From Bradyrhizobium sp. 195 (GTDB lineage Bacteria > Pseudomonadota > Alphaproteobacteria > Rhizobiales > Xanthobacteraceae), in assembly GCF_023101665.1 (NCBI RefSeq), contig NZ_CP082162.1:248001-312000 (forward strand): a DNA stretch of 64,000 nucleotides, written 5' to 3'. Positions 3,098-60,579 of this stretch are shown piece by piece (within the stretch, counting starts at the first letter, position 1; each line of letters opens with the position of its first letter). The position numbers and the translations under genes were made by a program. Under the pieces are notes generated by a model. That model was given only the letters and a program-made list of their open reading frames with translations, ran no database searches and was not told where the DNA came from.

Positions 3098-3275
3098 GCG
3101 CGCCTACTTTCTTGTGAGAGCGGCCCCACCGACACCGGCGATCACGACCATGCGCTTTATGCGCGCTAATAGCCAGCACTATCGCGCCATCGGGGTGCGC
3201 GGCGTTTTAGTCCTCGCTAATGGCGTGATGCAGGCGTAGCGTCGCATCCATCACCGCATCTTCCACTACGGCTTC

Positions 3276-3309
3276 TACCGGTGACTGAGGGTCACGTGCG
3301 CTCACGCCG
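3276..3309 (+). promoter_or_regulatory. Leader element, copy H (diverged)
   Basis: Carries the family core TACCGGTGACTGAGGG followed by GTGCGCTCACGCC. It lies about 50 bases before the tiny membrane protein gene at 3361. It is the least conserved copy, and the second hairpin seen in other copies is not obvious. Confidence 0.5.
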
Positions 3310-3360
3310 AGAAACCAGTCATTGAAGCACGACCATGTCGTTGTCGCGCAGGAGCATGCG

Positions 3361-3453
3361 ATGTCGCGTTTTCGCGCCTCGGAATGGATCGTTCCGCCAA
3401 TCGTCGCTCCGCTGTTGCTGTTCGCTTGTGCGGCGGCGCTCTTCCATGGCTAG
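3361..3453 (+). CDS. 30-residue single-span membrane protein (WxVPP family)
   Basis: A 30-residue reading frame: a short polar N-terminus (MSRFRASE), then W-I-V-P-P and a hydrophobic helix of about 18 residues (IVAPLLLFACAAALF). It aligns with the 33-residue protein at 5886-5987 in the same order: F, acidic residue plus W, [IL]VPP, hydrophobic helix. Both follow a copy of the leader element, which supports this very short frame as a real gene. Inner-membrane location inferred. Its end overlaps the ATG at 3446. Confidence 0.5.
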   Translation: MSRFRASEWIVPPIVAPLLLFACAAALFHG

Positions 3454-5209: not shown

Positions 5210-5509
5210 CCACCTCAGGCGGGCTCTTCCATTTCAGCCGACGCTGGTTTTGCATCGGATTTGCTCGGACTCGGCCATTGCGAAGTGCTTGGTGCCTGTT
5301 GGGCGCCTCAACCGGCAACGAACGGCGATCGCCATATCGGCTTACTGAGGGCGAACGGACGTCTGATGATGGATGTGCTCACCGCAGCTTTTGACCCCTA
5401 CCGCACATTCGGCGCGACGTTTTCCTGCGCCCGCAGCCCGCGCCCGGTGGCCGCTCCTTCAAGTAGGAACTGAAAGCACCGGCAGCCATTAGCCAGTGTC
5501 ATCCTCTAT
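5210..5509. other. Spacer before leader A
   Basis: An open frame from 5261 has only a TTG start and no family resemblance. I see no convincing gene. Confidence 0.4.
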
Positions 5510-5541
5510 TATCGGTGACCGAGAGCCGTATGCTCCCGCCT
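5510..5541 (+). promoter_or_regulatory. Leader element, copy A
   Basis: TATCGGTGACCGAGAGC, a short loop, then TGCTCCCGCCT. The arm AGC at 5524-5526 can pair with GCT at 5532-5534. CCCGC at 5535-5539 can instead pair with GCGGG at 5550-5554, which is the only ribosome-binding-like sequence before the ATG at 5562. Two overlapping hairpins with the second covering the Shine-Dalgarno region suggest translational control. Confidence 0.65.
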
Positions 5542-5561
5542 CAACCTGAGCGGGTGAGCCG

Positions 5562-5735
5562 ATGTGCGAAACGTGCACAGAGCTAGACGAGATAATCTCG
5601 CATTACCGGCGACTCGCGGCCTTCCCCTTCGATCCGCTCACCGCAGAGCGTATTACCGGCGTGGTCGCCGACTTGCAGCAGAAACGGAACGCAATGCACC
5701 CCACCGTTCTGCCCTCGTCGGAGTTAGGGCGCTGA
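5562..5735 (+). CDS. 57-residue MCxxC small protein, paralogue 1
   Basis: Begins MCETCTELDEIISHYRRL and continues with an amphipathic, probably helical region (RITGVVADLQQKRNAM). The CxxC directly after the start could bind a metal or form a disulfide, but a single pair is weak evidence. It resembles the 53-residue MCNKC protein at 7844-8005, and both follow the leader element. I remember many proteins of this type in Bradyrhizobium. Cytoplasmic, function unknown. Confidence 0.65.
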   Translation: MCETCTELDEIISHYRRLAAFPFDPLTAERITGVVADLQQKRNAMHPTVLPSSELGR

Positions 5736-5831
5736 CAGCCATTTCGTCGCATTGGTGTGCGCATTTTTCGATATCGCTGCGCGCTGTTGTAGCCTAGGGT
5801 ATTACCCATCACCGCCCCGATCAGTGGCATC

Positions 5832-5863
5832 TATCGGTGACTGAGAGCGTTGCGCTCCCGCCT
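5832..5863 (+). promoter_or_regulatory. Leader element, copy B
   Basis: TATCGGTGACTGAGAGCG, loop, CGCTCCCGCCT. AGCG pairs with CGCT as a tight first hairpin. CCGCC at 5858-5862 pairs with GGCGG at 5877-5881, five bases before the ATG at 5886. Confidence 0.7.
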
Positions 5864-5885
5864 CTAACTGAAAGTGGGCGGTCAG

Positions 5886-5987
5886 ATGTCCGATCCTGTC
5901 AAATTCGATATTCGTGATTGGCTCGTACCACCATTATTGGTGCCGATATTTCTTTTACTTCTGATCGCGGCCGCGGCCGTTCTATAG
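5886..5987 (+). CDS. 33-residue single-span membrane protein (WxVPP family)
   Basis: Starts MSDPVKFDIRDW, followed by LVPPLLVPIF and a run of Leu, Ile and Ala forming one membrane helix to the C-terminus. It matches the 30-residue protein at 3361-3453 in length, the W-[IL]-VPP motif and placement after a leader copy. The start is fixed by the Shine-Dalgarno-like GGGCGG just upstream. Probably a cytoplasm-facing N-terminus with one inner-membrane helix. Confidence 0.55.
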   Translation: MSDPVKFDIRDWLVPPLLVPIFLLLLIAAAAVL

Positions 5988-6051
5988 CGGTAGGTCCCCT
6001 CAACCGCGGCCGGGTGATCGAGCCAAGACTCCGGCCAGACAGGAGTCGGAA

Positions 6052-6240
6052 ATGGCAAACACAGCGATCATCAGGGACGCCTATGGAGCCCCGGCAATTT
6101 TTGTTGGTTCGAAAACAGGACGGGACGATGCGCCCTTTGTTTTCGTCAGGGTCGGAGACGAGGAGCGCCGGATGCGTTGGTCCGAATGGGATGCTCTTCC
6201 GGCCTGGACCGGCGAGCGTCCCTCTTGGGCAGGTAAGTAG
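6052..6240 (+). CDS. Conserved hypothetical protein, 62 residues
   Basis: MANTAIIRDAYGAPAIFVGS opens a small, mostly beta-like protein with an acidic/aromatic C-terminus (RMRWSEWDALPAW). A purine-rich CAGGAG lies a few bases before the ATG. No membrane segment and no recognised domain. It sits among other tiny genes, all on the plus strand, but with no overlap that would prove an operon. Confidence 0.6.
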   Translation: MANTAIIRDAYGAPAIFVGSKTGRDDAPFVFVRVGDEERRMRWSEWDALPAWTGERPSWAGK

Positions 6241-6256
6241 GAATGAGAGGTTCAGC

Positions 6257-6528
6257 ATGACGCCGGCCTAACAGGTTCATGGACGGCGGCGCTTTTCCTG
6301 GCCTCGGCACTTGGCGTCCCTACGCCAGCCGCTTTCGCCGCGGAGCCGAACTGCCGTGCGGTCGAAAGCACCAGCGCGCGCCTCTCCTGTTACGACGCGG
6401 CGTTTCCTCCAAAAACGAGGAAGCCAGCCGAGACCGTTATCGACTCATCGTCAGGCGACAAGGACCCATTCCTTGACGAAGAAGCCAGAACCGCCGCAAA
6501 GCTAAAGAATATTTGCCGCGGTCGCTGA
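6257..6528 (+). pseudogene. Secreted Cys-containing small protein, start lost by frameshift
   Basis: A frame ending at 6528 encodes a hydrophobic signal-peptide-like stretch (TAALFLASALGVPTPAAFAA), then EPNCRAVESTSARLSCYDAAFPP and a C-terminal DPFLDEEARTAAKLKNICRG. I recognise this pattern as a periplasmic protein family of Bradyrhizobium. No ATG, GTG or TTG opens this frame. The well-placed ATG at 6257 is one frame off, so one base seems to have been lost right after it. Function unknown. Confidence 0.6.
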
Positions 6529-6824
6529 GTTCGCCGACGCGTGGGCGTGTCGTGCGCTCCAATTCAGAGGCCCAATTAAAATGACGAAAGAGGATGCTAG
6601 AGGTCGCCGGGTGGTCCGCCAACGAAGGCGAGCCCTTCATTTAGCGGGGAGGCATTAGACGACAGGGCGGACAGCTCCGCGAGTTCCAAGGAGCACCAGA
6701 TGCGAAAGCAGCGCCTGCTCGAGGGCGGTCCGTGTCGATCGTTCAGTGAAGACTTCAAGCGATGCTGAGTGACGGGAATTTGAGGCTGCTTACGGGTCGA
6801 TTCGATGCAGAGTAATGATGGCGC

Positions 6825-7004
6825 ATGGAACATCAGGGAAATGAATACACGGTAGTCCAGACGATCAATCCGTCGGGCTGGAAATGGTCGTTTGAGCGAG
6901 ATGGTCGGTCCCCCAGAACCGGAATCGCCTTCAATCGAGCGCAGGCTATCAGCGCAGCTCAACGTGCGATCAGCCAATTGCTCAGAGATCAGCAGCACCA
7001 ATAG
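6825..7004 (+). CDS. 59-residue small conserved protein
   Basis: Starts MEHQGNEYTVVQTINPSGW and continues KWSFERDGRSPRTGIAFNR to a helical Ala/Gln-rich tail. The pattern of a WxW strand, a basic turn and a 'TGIAFNRAQAISAA' helix resembles small rhizobial proteins with an N-terminal beta hairpin and C-terminal helix. No leader element is visible upstream. Cytoplasmic, function unknown. Confidence 0.6.
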   Translation: MEHQGNEYTVVQTINPSGWKWSFERDGRSPRTGIAFNRAQAISAAQRAISQLLRDQQHQ

Positions 7005-7279
7005 ACACGCTCGGTTTGCAGCCCGCCTGGAGCTGAATTTAGTCCTCGGTACGTTGCCTCTCGGTGCCGATGTGGCACGGTGCAAGTGCGGATCACAAAA
7101 GATCGGCGGCAGGGCGGAGAACTGCAAGAGAGTTGCTCCCAGCCAGCACCGCATTACAGACCAGTCAGCTAGCGACTGACGCTCGGCAATTTCGCACCTG
7201 CCAGGAACCGAAACAAAGCGCTCGCTATTCGGCAGATAAAGGCGCACTGTCCCACTACCATCGAGCGGCCCTTAGCATT

Positions 7280-7314
7280 TATCGGTGGTGTGAACGCAAG
7301 TTGCGCTCCCGCTC
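7280..7314 (+). promoter_or_regulatory. Leader element, copy C (variant stem)
   Basis: TATCGGTGGTGTGAACGCAAGTTGCGCTCCCGCT. Here the first hairpin is CGCAA/TTGCG, different in sequence from the other copies but still paired. The second stem CCGCT (7309-7313) pairs with AGCGG (7323-7327), and the alternative GCTCC/GGAGC is also possible, before the ATG at 7338. Confidence 0.6.
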
Positions 7315-7337
7315 AACCCCGCAGCGGAGCGTCAAAC

Positions 7338-7537
7338 ATGCCGGCTCAACGGCCCCCAGACAATCATTGACATTCGAATACCGCCTCGCGCAAGAGGCGA
7401 TCAATCTCCGCCTTCAGGCCAAGGGGATGCCCGTTGGCGTCCGCCGTACGGAGCTTCTGCGAAAAGCCAGGCAGATCGATGTTGCCGGAGAACTGAACAA
7501 GTGGTTGACCTCGCCGGGACTACAGCCGCCATCTTGA
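7338..7537 (+). pseudogene. Small 'LRKARQ...W-L-SPGLQPP' family protein, start frame uncertain
   Basis: The frame ending at 7537 encodes YRLAQEAINLRLQAKGMP, LLRKARQIDVAGELNKWL and the hallmark C-terminus SPGLQPP of a small rhizobial family. Relatives are at 60430-60579 and in the gene cut by the IS66 element. The ATG at 7338, correctly spaced after leader C, is out of frame with this part. Either a one-base change broke the gene, or translation starts at a TTG about 35 bases later. Helical, cytoplasmic, function unknown. Confidence 0.5.
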
Positions 7538-7636
7538 ATTTAGGCCTCGTTCTTGTCCGCGTGATGAACTTCAGCACGCCACGTGGAGACCAACCTTTAT
7601 CGGGATTTTACTCTCACCTTCCCGGGGCTGGTAACC

Positions 7637-7671
7637 GCCGCCTGCGCTTTATTTAAGCGGGCGGCGTTTTT
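7637..7671 (+). terminator. Rho-independent terminator
   Basis: CGCCGCCTGCGCTT, a short T/A loop and AAGCGGGCGGCG form a strong hairpin followed by five T. It could end the transcript of the gene at 7338-7537. Confidence 0.7.
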
Positions 7672-7793
7672 GCTTGAGATGGAAAGCCGTCGGACGCGAC
7701 GTCTAGCAGCAGATCGTGATTTCCATGTGGCTTTCCAGGAACGCCGCTCGAAGAGCGGCTTTAAGCATAATCATCTTTCGAATCTTGGGCTAC

Positions 7794-7825
7794 TATCGGT
7801 GACTGAGAGCTAGTTGCTCCCGCCT
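7794..7825 (+). promoter_or_regulatory. Leader element, copy D
   Basis: TATCGGTGACTGAGAGC, loop, GCTCCCGCCT. CCCGC at 7819-7823 can pair with GCGGG at 7833-7837, immediately before the ATG at 7838 or 7844. Confidence 0.65.
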
Positions 7826-7843
7826 CCAAGCCGCGGGATGCAC

Positions 7844-8005
7844 ATGTGCAACAAGTGCGACCAGACAGACAACAAGATTGAACAGCTCCGCGGGTTGATA
7901 TCACCGGGAATGGACGCGTTTAGCCTAGCGATGATCCGATGCGCCATCCAATTGCTAGATGCTGATAAGGCGGCCTTTAAGTGCCACGGGAGCGCGCACA
8001 ATTAG
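7844..8005 (+). CDS. 53-residue MCxxC small protein, paralogue 2
   Basis: Starts MCNKCDQTDNKIEQLRGL; an in-frame ATG two codons earlier (7838) is also possible. It has the same MCxxC opening and helical body as the protein at 5562-5735, with one more Cys in the middle and one near the C-terminus. Both genes follow a leader copy with a matched anti-Shine-Dalgarno stem. Function unknown. Confidence 0.65.
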   Translation: MCNKCDQTDNKIEQLRGLISPGMDAFSLAMIRCAIQLLDADKAAFKCHGSAHN

Positions 8006-8189
8006 GTGCGCCCTCAGTTCGCAATCTTGGCCGATGTCGCCTCTTGGCCCAATGCTGACCCGTCCGATCGCGCAGGAAGTGTCCGCTTTCAAGGCGACAA
8101 CAGACAGCCGCTGACTTGGTAGCGCTCGTCCGCCTGTGACCCTGGCTGTGTGAAAACGCCGCTGCTTTGCTATGATTTCCTCGTGATTC

Positions 8190-8742
8190 AGCGGGGGACG
8201 CTGATGAGGCGCTTCGCTAAGCAGGCGGATCGTGGGCAACGAACGCTATTACCATGCCTCGATGATTTCATTGACGAGAGCAACCCTGTTCGCGTGGCCG
8301 CTTCGGCAAGCAGGACTTTGCCTATTTGCCGGGGGAAGACGCCTATCGCTGTCCGGCTGGGGAGCAACTGCCGTATCGCTTTACGAACGAGGAAGATGGC
8401 AAGCGGATAAAGCGCTACTGGACCATGGCCTGTCAAAAATGTTCACTCAAATCGCAATGCACGACAGGGCCGGAGCGACGGATTCCACGATGGGAGCATG
8501 AGCATCTGCTCGAAGCTGTGCAGCAACGCCTTGATGCAAGCGCACAAGCCATGCGCGTGCGTCGCGAGACGGTCGAGCATCCGTTCGGCACCATGAAGGC
8601 CCGCATGGGACCGACACATTTCCTCACCAAAACGCTTCCAAAAGTAGCCGCCGAGATGGCTCTTTCGGTCCTGGCCTATAACCTGACACGGGCCATAAAC
8701 ATCGTCGGGACCAAGCCGTTGATGGCCGCGATCGCGGCCTGA
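8190..8742 (+). pseudogene. IS1182-type transposase, C-terminal remnant
   Basis: From about 8326 the frame reads CPAGEQLPYRF, a C-x-x-C region (CQKCSLKSQC) and the DDE C-terminal part VEHPFGTMKARMG...LTKTLPKVAAEMALSVLAYNLTR, typical of IS1182/DDE_Tnp_1_6 transposases. Weaker traces in other frames (GNERYYHASM) lie upstream. The N-terminal half with the first catalytic aspartates is missing and frames are shifted, so this is dead. Terminal repeats were not found. Confidence 0.8.
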
Positions 8743-9529: not shown

Positions 9530-9685
9530 ATGGCAGATGACCTTCGCCAGCTCGAGAGAATCGCGCGTGAGCAAGCCGCGCAAACAACCGAACCTCGGAC
9601 AAAAGTTGCCCTTCAAGAAATCGCGGAGGAGTACCGGACCAGAGCAGAATGGCTCGAACTTAACGCGCCAGCCCCCAAGCATTGA
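9530..9685 (+). CDS. 51-residue charged helical hypothetical protein
   Basis: MADDLRQLERIAREQAAQTT, then TKVALQEIAEEYRTRAEWLE and a short Pro-rich end. Almost entirely predicted helix with balanced charge. The stop lies two bases before the inverted leader copy G. Small rhizobial proteins of this shape are common; function unknown. Confidence 0.5.
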   Translation: MADDLRQLERIAREQAAQTTEPRTKVALQEIAEEYRTRAEWLELNAPAPKH

Positions 9686-9686
9686 A

Positions 9687-9718
9687 AGCGGGAGCATCTC
9701 GGCTCTCGATCACCAATT
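9687..9718 (-). promoter_or_regulatory. Leader-like element, copy G, inverted relative to its gene
   Basis: Read on the minus strand it matches the family (GGTGATCGAGAGCCGAGATGCTCCCGC). Read on the plus strand, towards the gene at 9734, GGGAGC/GCTCTC gives a hairpin with one G-U pair. No gene in the sense direction is apparent, so its role is unclear. Confidence 0.45.
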
Positions 9719-9733
9719 GAGGACACGAGCCCT

Positions 9734-9922
9734 ATGGAACTGGAGACGGCGATGGGAAGCGGGACTGGACCTTTTCCGACGACTGAGCTGAAGATCGTGG
9801 AGCGCTATAAGCGAGCCGCGCGTGAGCAAATGGACGGCCCCAAGCTCCTCCAGTTGCTCAAAGAAATCGAGGACGAGATAAGAAGACGGACCGCTGTGGT
9901 CTTTAAGGTCCTGCAATCCTGA
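9734..9922 (+). CDS. Small 'IEDEIRRR' helical protein, paralogue 1
   Basis: 62 residues. After a variable start, TTELKIVERYKRAAREQMDG and LLQLLKEIEDEIRRR match the gene at 41491-41667 (LGERLRQAAREDMDG, IEEIEDEIRRR). Two amphipathic helices, cytoplasmic. Both genes have a leader-family element directly upstream, but in opposite orientation relative to the gene. Function unknown. Confidence 0.6.
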   Translation: MELETAMGSGTGPFPTTELKIVERYKRAAREQMDGPKLLQLLKEIEDEIRRRTAVVFKVLQS

Positions 9923-41667: not shown

Positions 41668-41689
41668 CAACCGTCTCCATTCCTTAGGA

Positions 41690-41721
41690 GGCGGGAGCAT
41701 TTCGGCTCTCAGTCACCGATA
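41690..41721 (-). promoter_or_regulatory. Leader element, copy F
   Basis: Minus strand: TATCGGTGACTGAGAGCCGA, then TGCTCCCGCCT. CTCC can pair with the Shine-Dalgarno GGAG before the ATG at 41667; AGC/GCT gives the alternative hairpin. Confidence 0.65.
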
Positions 41722-41765
41722 AAGGCCACGGACCATGCGGTGATACTGAAAATAGCACTGCGCCG

Positions 41766-60092: not shown

Positions 60093-60161
60093 TTTGCATA
60101 GCAACCTTTCGTCAAAAGGTATATTGTTCTGTCATCACCGGCCGAGGCTCTGCCCGTAGGC

Positions 60162-60195
60162 GTCGGTGGCTGAGAGTCATCGTGTGCTCCCGCCT
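60162..60195 (+). promoter_or_regulatory. Leader element, copy E
   Basis: GTCGGTGGCTGAGAGT, loop, GTGCTCCCGCCT. CTCCC at 60187-60191 pairs perfectly with GGGAG at 60203-60207, the Shine-Dalgarno sequence seven bases before the ATG at 60215. Confidence 0.65.
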
Positions 60196-60214
60196 ATCAT
60201 CAGGGAGTGCCGTT

Positions 60215-60538
60215 ATGGCTCGATTTCCTTTTTTTCGCCCGCAAGGCCACACCGATATGATGCACCTCAAGCAAATGCGTGAGTGTATTCAGACATGTCG
60301 CGAAGTGCTCGACGCCAACCCGCTCCCAAGCACGTTTGTGGGACGGAAGACACAAGGGCCAGTCCGGACAGAAGAAGCGGCCGGGGAGCGGGGAAGCTTC
60401 CAAATTATTGTGAAGGCCGAACAGGACCCGCCCACGAAGCGAAGCGCCTCCGTAAAGAAGCCAAATCGCTTCCCCCCGGAATTCGCAAAGAGGCGCTCTT
60501 ACGGAAAGCTCGGCAAGCTGAAACTGGCTCGCACATAA
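60215..60538 (+). CDS. Small protein with 'TFVGRKTQ' motif, tail uncertain
   Basis: 107 residues as open. MARFPFFRPQGHTDMMHLKQ, MRECIQTCREVLDANPLPST, FVGRKTQGPVRTEE is the recognisable part of a small rhizobial family. The tail after ~70 residues overlaps the module at 60430 in another frame, so the two were probably neighbouring genes now fused by an indel. Preceded by leader E. Confidence 0.55.
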   Translation: MARFPFFRPQGHTDMMHLKQMRECIQTCREVLDANPLPSTFVGRKTQGPVRTEEAAGERGSFQIIVKAEQDPPTKRSASVKKPNRFPPEFAKRRSYGKLGKLKLART

Positions 60539-60579
60539 GCGAGTGGTTGCGCTCTCCGGGAATGCAGCCTCCTAAGTAG
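60430..60579 (+). pseudogene. 'LPPGI...HISEWLRSPGMQPP' family protein, start lost
   Basis: HEAKRLRKEAKSLPPGIRKE, ALLRKARQAETGSHISEWLR, SPGMQPPK. Matches 7338-7537 and the gene cut by IS66. The frame has no suitable start and overlaps the preceding gene, so it is probably a damaged copy. Confidence 0.5.

Follow-up and report, generated by a model that had tools for sequence, protein, structure and literature searches.

Riboswitches and riboswitch candidates that control translation are structured 5' leaders with a conserved core, alternative pairings and predicted sequestration of the ribosome-binding site (RBS). RBS-hiding leaders in rhizobia include the ROSE and fourU RNA thermometers, Bradyrhizobium being known for ROSE elements, and alphaproteobacterial small RNAs (sRNAs) with CCUCC-type loops bear an anti-Shine-Dalgarno (anti-SD) sequence. 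Here, a structured 5' leader RNA of about 80 nucleotides (nt) is described from a 64,000-nt stretch of Bradyrhizobium sp. 195 (contig NZ_CP082162.1, positions 248,001 to 312,000; the whole stretch is called the window below), where it recurs in front of small genes. With a probability of roughly 60%, this cis-acting leader forms a family of its own that places small-protein genes under common post-transcriptional control. Searches of Rfam 15 gave no match at the gathering threshold in the window, and nothing reached gathering among 40 loci with variants searched at E values up to 10. The overlaps that appeared there were at chance level, one with Plant_U3 on locus L300 (16.8 bits against a gathering score of 80, E value of 1.0) and one with Leu_leader at the edge of locus L306 (25.8 of 50 bits, E value of 0.11, other strand). 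Since it matches no Rfam family at threshold, the leader probably marks an undescribed gene-control system. A literature search by sequence strings, by DUF6894 and by topic, with subscription journals and supplements outside its scope, did not find a description of the leader.

From 5' to 3', the leader consists of a stem, P1 (UCACCG...CGGUGA), the conserved sequence CUGAGAG, a short variable stretch, GCUCCCGCC, the RBS and the start codon. The original prediction, made from the letters of the window, described a leader of about 32 nt with two competing hairpins. That motif is real but is only the 3' half of the unit, which starts about 25 nt earlier (farther in the copy at 5472) with ATCACCG and a loop; this arm pairs with CGGTGA inside TATCGGTGAC. 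The collected loci contained 286 anchor matches, defined as GAGA[AG]...GCTCCCGC or GAGAG...ACTCCCGCC, of which 196 have a full P1 of 6 base pairs (at most two G-U) and a downstream open reading frame (ORF) of at least 25 amino acids (aa), and 171 of these were left once near-duplicates were removed. Sixty of the 286 came from loci L233-L292, gathered with a loose pattern, and 5 of these 60 have a full P1. According to the stretch between GAGA and CTCCCGC, the 171 leaders fall into type A (9 nt or less; 122 leaders), type C (10 nt or more; 42) and type B (GAGAA; 7), and their P1 loops are mostly 18 to 20 nt long (range, 12 to 27 nt).

The position of the leader is nearly fixed. Among the 171 leaders, 94% have an A at position -1 of P1, a -10-like box lies at -13 to -8 (A in 60%), and TTG rises near -42, a promoter-like spacing which indicates that the transcript probably starts at the A before P1. 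At the other end, the start codon lies 16 to 26 nt past CTCCCGC in 165 of the 171 leaders with starts picked by script (within 10 to 44 nt, with a preference for a Shine-Dalgarno [SD] sequence), and in 142 of 153 when the first ATG is simply taken; the picked starts are 153 ATG, 15 GTG and 3 TTG. Conserved and covarying, the leader thus sits between promoter-like sequence and start codons, the transcription start being placed by the putative promoter.

Compensatory changes support stem P1, which the original prediction had not seen. Across 59 aligned diverse leaders of all types, double changes occur in five of the six pairs, with 22 doubly changed cells compared with 2.9 after shuffling (0 of 500 shuffles as high), and slid registers of P1 pair at most 61%. 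Because these rows had been selected for a full P1, candidates chosen without P1 provide a fairer test. Among 49 such candidates (chance matches included) whose 3' arm is unable to pair with UCACCG, 22 fully complement their own arm, compared with a mean of 5.2 (standard deviation, 2.0; maximum, 14) over 2000 permutations; 15 of the 49 also contain a stretch complementary to the consensus arm, in part since arms like UCAUCG can pair with either. In a wider set, the complement of the own arm was present in 39 of 106 candidates and that of the consensus arm in 31, with 11.2 expected from permuted arms (maximum, 22 over 500 permutations). The first alignment, A1, had no P1 pair with changes on both sides because its collecting pattern fixed the 3' arm. 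The arm variants include UCAUCG/CGAUGA, UCACAG/CUGUGA and UCGGCG/CGCCGA, and distant loci carry other arms at the same place, namely, UCAUUGGC/GCUGAUGA (two G-U), UCGCUGG/CCAGCGG (one G-U), UCGCUGA/UCAGCGA and AUCGCAA/UUGCGAU, as well as UCACCAGC/GCUGGUGG (one G-U) on Methylobacterium nodulans plasmid pMNOD02. Compensatory changes in P1 were found in Bradyrhizobium, Microvirga, Methylobacterium and other alphaproteobacterial genomes.

These changes bear on whether the element acts as DNA, being a repeat, a mobile cassette or a protein operator. Its copies are palindromic, multiple and clustered, and they are enriched on the smaller contigs: the Bradyrhizobium sp. 195 genome has 24 matches to covariance model R2 at an E value of ≤0.1, 7 on C1 (8.3 Mb), 14 on C2 (602 kb) and 3 on C3 (221 kb). 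However, P1 is compensatory despite the wide range of loop lengths, the element is placed between promoter and start codon, and of 27 single changes confined to the 5' arm, with the 3' arm unaltered, 20 retain a wobble pair (plain transitions alone also favour wobble on this arm). The described repeats Br-REP1 and Br-REP2 are likewise palindromic and multi-copy in Bradyrhizobium and its relatives, where they occupy 3' untranslated regions and intergenic regions (PMC5082802). Identity with them was rejected, as the consensus quoted in PMC5082802 differs from the leader, and a DNA-level feature is highly improbable.

The C-rich core of the leader is complementary to the RBS, as had been predicted, and this is supported statistically. 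With the first ATG taken and no SD criterion on either side, the duplex between the SD window and the anti-SD segment averages -10.4 kcal/mol in 145 leaders, compared with -7.25 kcal/mol in 539 control ORFs of the same loci, the start codons of which are predicted (p=4e-23). The mean is -10.65 kcal/mol (n=116, p=5e-20) with the rows of the WxVPP membrane peptides removed. Leaders exceed controls in the SD words GGGAGC (19/145 versus 2/539), GGAGC (41/145 versus 13/539) and GGCGG (36/145 versus 22/539), the last found mostly in the WxVPP family (9/116 without it), and C follows GGAG in 40 of 75 leaders compared with 12 of 67 controls (p=1e-5). An uneven comparison, in which start-picking favoured SD-like words including GGCGG and the controls required a canonical SD, gave -11.1 versus -8.6 kcal/mol, a result kept in the even-handed repeat above. 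The SD is also predicted to be less accessible in leaders, with an unpaired probability of 0.29 compared with 0.42 in 137 SD-bearing controls. Given this greater complementarity of the SD regions to CUCCCGCC than in control genes, and their lower predicted accessibility, sequestration of the RBS is likely. A C-rich segment able to pair with the SD is shared with the anti-SD sRNAs, but here it lies in cis upstream of the gene, with CUCCCGCC inside a leader that carries P1.

Occlusion of the RBS, together with the presence of ROSE elements in Bradyrhizobium, might point to a ROSE-like thermometer, one of the designs named in the original prediction. However, the predicted accessibility of the SD is flat in the 171 leaders, rising from 0.289 to 0.310 between 20 and 55°C, while 137 control genes shift more, from 0.394 to 0.464, so that melting near growth or heat shock temperatures is not predicted. 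The leader shares the hidden RBS with ROSE and fourU elements but precedes other genes, has another sequence and matches no Rfam family at threshold, and a thermometer is therefore hardly credible. The same occlusion with little temperature dependence, and the predicted position of the stem at the 5' terminus, would also suit a constitutive leader, in which the mRNA would be stabilised by the terminal hairpin and small proteins would be made at a low level owing to partial pairing of the SD, with no switching. Such a leader is unlikely, as it leaves the strict conservation of CUGAGAG, of a GGC in the P1 loop and of a downstream GCC unexplained.

Several results weigh against the reading of a distinct leader family with common control. 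The complementarity between CUCCCGCC and the SD is generic and not copy-specific: the claim that the partners change together between copies did not hold, as own pairings average -12.02 kcal/mol compared with -11.85 kcal/mol for permuted ones (102 of 2000 permutations as good) and the bases flanking the C-rich segment and the SD are not associated (p=0.54), although covariation could hardly show here because the pattern fixed CTCCCGC. The listed SD types are absent in 39 of the 171 leaders. The upstream hairpin P2 (GAG:CUC plus two inner pairs) does not covary where variation was possible; one inner pair is doubly changed in a single cell and fails to pair in 28 of the 58 rows, and the outer pairs could not vary because the pattern fixed GAGAG and CTCCCGC. 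Covariation had been expected in both stems of the original prediction and was found instead in P1. For P1 itself, 16 doubly changed cells likewise appear in the +3 slid register, whose covariation score is 0.119 compared with 0.332 for P1, and the mean pairing in Vienna ensembles is just 0.59, with 0.26 for P2. The 171 leaders are phylogenetically non-independent and include a small number of chance rows (L289, for example), so the p-values given for leaders overstate significance. Contact between the loop GGC and the GCC is a hypothesis, as GCC variants judged by eye are mixed, some compensatory, some wobble and some mismatched; matches to such variants occurred in 12 of 242 genus genomes and 4 of 149 family genomes (own genome in both, some by chance). 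Finally, a ligand, protein or sRNA partner was not identified, and no genome-wide partner search was made.

The mechanism that would fit the distinct leader family begins at a sigma-70-like promoter, from which the transcript would start at the A preceding UCACCG (as placed from the promoter position), so that P1, itself shown by covariation, would form its extreme 5' end. The P1 loop, with its near-invariant GGC, and the conserved CUGAGAG would be followed by GCUCCCGCC as an anti-SD mimic, which may pair with the SD of the gene (stem P3) and reduce translation by default; the excess of pairing is statistical, and the effect on translation is presumed from it. A common factor, whether a small ligand, an RNA-binding protein or an sRNA, recognising the surface of the P1 loop, CUGAGAG and CUCCCGCC would then release the SD, perhaps by way of the alternative P2 pairing (GAG:CUC), and activate a regulon of small proteins to which Crp/Fnr-type regulators also belong. 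Mutually exclusive stems (GAG:CUC versus GGGAG:CUCCC) are possible; the predictions favour P3 over P2 (indices of 0.57 and 0.26, respectively), and where the SD is GGCGG, the CCGCC:GGCGG pairing need not exclude P2. We infer a default of low translation with release through a common factor. The broader view, that this is a new class of switching leader across alphaproteobacteria in which a P1-loop/CUGAGAG core read by a new ligand, protein or sRNA gives one signal to orphan small-protein genes and Crp/Fnr genes, so that the dispersed regulon is defined by an RNA and not by a transcription factor, is tentative, at a little under even odds.

With respect to the releasing factor, the anatomy is riboswitch-like, with the near-invariant GGC near the end of the P1 loop (184 of 194 P1-bearing copies found with a relaxed pattern), GCC after the CTCCC-like segment (189 of 194) and CUGAGAG around a covarying stem, in addition to the RBS complementarity. 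In a strict riboswitch, GGC, CUGAGAG and GCC would make a small-molecule pocket, and the ligand would determine whether P2 forms, leaving the SD free, or P3, hiding it. However, the core is small, the GGC:GCC contact is hypothetical, a ligand was not identified, and the targets are many unrelated orphan small proteins rather than one metabolic pathway, which make a strict riboswitch rather improbable. In comparison with described riboswitches, the leader here precedes many unrelated orphan small-protein genes plus Crp/Fnr genes, falls in no Rfam family at threshold and has a hypothetical P2/P3 switch. Alternatively, an sRNA or RNA-binding protein may act in trans at CUGAGAG, CUCCCGCC or both to free or block the SD. 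Although its partner was not identified and no genome-wide search for it was made, such a factor would fit a single regulon whose unrelated genes share an identical short core, with 24 model matches in one genome, and it stands as a reasonable possibility that falls short of even odds. A trans-acting protein or sRNA is somewhat more likely than a small ligand as the releasing factor because the target genes are so dissimilar.

The 225 anchor matches with downstream ORFs lead to 203 distinct ORFs (median, 59 aa), which form 36 single-linkage clusters, some singletons being chance matches. Together with the covariation of P1, this bears out the predicted cis-acting RNA leader shared by unrelated small genes. 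The largest clusters are CxxC zinc-ribbon-like proteins (55), WxVPP membrane peptides (48), SPGLxxP (21), MCxKC (13), Crp/Fnr family proteins of 228 to 255 aa (13) and YFFD/DUF6894 (7), the others being smaller. Among ten representatives scanned, Pfam matches at cut-off were limited to the Crp/Fnr protein, the DUF6894 protein and a zf-CHCC singleton, with weak similarity to zinc ribbon, RNA_pol_A_CTD and HHH below cut-off, and none of the ten matched NCBIfam at cut-off. In five of the six largest clusters (41 of the 48 members used for WxVPP; the sixth had no usable pair), 55% to 74% of single-change codons are synonymous, with about 25% expected by chance, so these five look like real proteins. 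In the plasmid records examined, two of which are almost entirely unannotated, the matched stretch or the ORF that follows it is annotated as a hypothetical protein, in one case as a helix-hairpin-helix protein, or not at all. The leader is thus a shared handle for orphan small proteins, some of them unannotated in public records; it predicts the start positions of such genes and suggests their co-control. The leader is found at Crp/Fnr genes from more than one subfamily (L095, L120, L027, L320, L364 and others), including in distant alphaproteobacteria; the assignment is by Pfam for L095 only and by eye for L320 and L364.

Covariance model R1 rests on 58 copies, of which 57 come from other genomes and one is the 5805 copy of the window. 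It recovered all eight copies named in the original prediction, seven of them clearly (E values below 1e-5) and that at 9756-9683 (minus strand) weakly (5e-4); the match at 5805 is partly by construction, since that copy is a row of the model. Matches to TATCGGTGACTGAGAGC with up to three mismatches number 5 in the window compared with 0.15 expected (5 reached in 0 of 100 shuffles), lying at 5510, 5832 and 7794 on the plus strand and 41705-41721 on the minus strand (exact or with one mismatch) and at 3276 (three mismatches). That copies precede tiny genes held for five (5472, 5805, 7767, 41747 on the minus strand, and 60131), which lie 14 to 24 nt upstream of an intact small ORF, but not in the usual form for the other three. 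The features are as follows:

3247..3312, plus strand, leader copy with intact P1 arms and decayed P2/CUCACGCC; the WxVPP ORF 3361-3453 (30 aa) lies downstream at longer spacing than usual (R1 37.3 bits, E value 4e-11).
5472..5544, plus strand, leader copy upstream of the MCETC ORF (57 aa) (R1 31.1 bits, E value 6e-9).
5562..5735, plus strand, MCxxC (MCETC) small ORF of 57 aa, leader target.
5805..5866, plus strand, best leader copy, P1 arms 5809-5814 and 5835-5840, upstream of a WxVPP ORF with SD GGGCGG (R1 73 bits, E value 1.5e-23, model row).
5886..5987, plus strand, WxVPP membrane peptide ORF of 33 aa, leader target; homologues carry the same leader.
7254..7317, plus strand, type B-like leader copy with P1 arms CCAUCG/CGGUGG, loop AGC and CUCCCGCU (R1 22.1 bits, E value 8e-6).
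7767..7828, plus strand, leader copy upstream of the MHMCNKC/MCNKC ORF (ATG 7838 or 7844; stop ends at 8005) (R1 44 bits, E value 2e-13).
9683..9756, minus strand, weak degenerate copy, inverted relative to an IEDEIRRR gene at about 9750 on the plus strand (R1 16.8 bits, E value 5e-4).
41686..41747, minus strand, leader copy upstream of the IEDEIRRR ORF 41667-41491 (58 aa) (R1 58 bits, E value 3e-18).
60131..60198, plus strand, type C leader copy (longer P2 region), SD GGGAG, upstream of the STFVGRKTQ ORF 60215-60538 (107 aa) (R1 35.9 bits, E value 1e-10).

The copy at 9683..9756 is probably a remnant without a convincing ORF. Behind the 7254 copy, the frame is broken near the start: within 7338-7537, ATG 7338 opens a frame of 10 codons and the SPGLQPP coding sequence runs on in another frame, a probable decayed gene. 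At 60283-60579, an SPGMQPPK-family reading frame overlaps the STFVGRKTQ ORF in its 3' part but is read in a different frame, which suggests that two leader-target genes were fused, with decay.

In the genome as a whole, most of the approximately 24 sites directly precede tiny genes of unrelated kinds; R1 gave 35 matches at an E value of ≤1, of which the weak ones are doubtful. A motif pattern (up to three mismatches) was found in 18 of 41 genomes, all within the genus, and R1 matched 103 of 149 family genomes at an E value of ≤0.001, about 67 of them at ≤1e-6. In the class, R2 at ≤0.001 matched 17 of 289 genomes, several with a clear P1 and small ORFs and several weak and chance-like, and R1 matched 37 of 289, most of the weak ones without GAGAG and CTCCCGC by eye. 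Named holders include Bradyrhizobium, Afipia, Microvirga and Methylobacterium nodulans, and contigs in unrelated metagenome-assembled genomes may be mis-binned. Tallies of the loose pattern GAGAGN{4,14}GCTCCCGCC in class and order (80/386 and 124/297) were rejected as evidence of presence because control counts outside the family are, by eye, about equally high.

Three of four matched IMG/VR viral contigs (L141, L142 and L144) show a P1-bearing leader copy, and the leader may travel on prophages or have been caught in prophage flanks. In the Bradyrhizobium sp. 195 genome, two clusters of leader plus tiny-gene modules of related families lie at C2:108.6-113.4 kb and C2:251.2-255.8 kb (about 3.2 to 7.8 kb of the window), which look like duplicated arrays on the 602-kb contig. 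Close leader pairs are also present in other genomes. Beside the leader cluster of the window, the sequence at about 8160-8740 resembles, by eye, a broken transposase gene.

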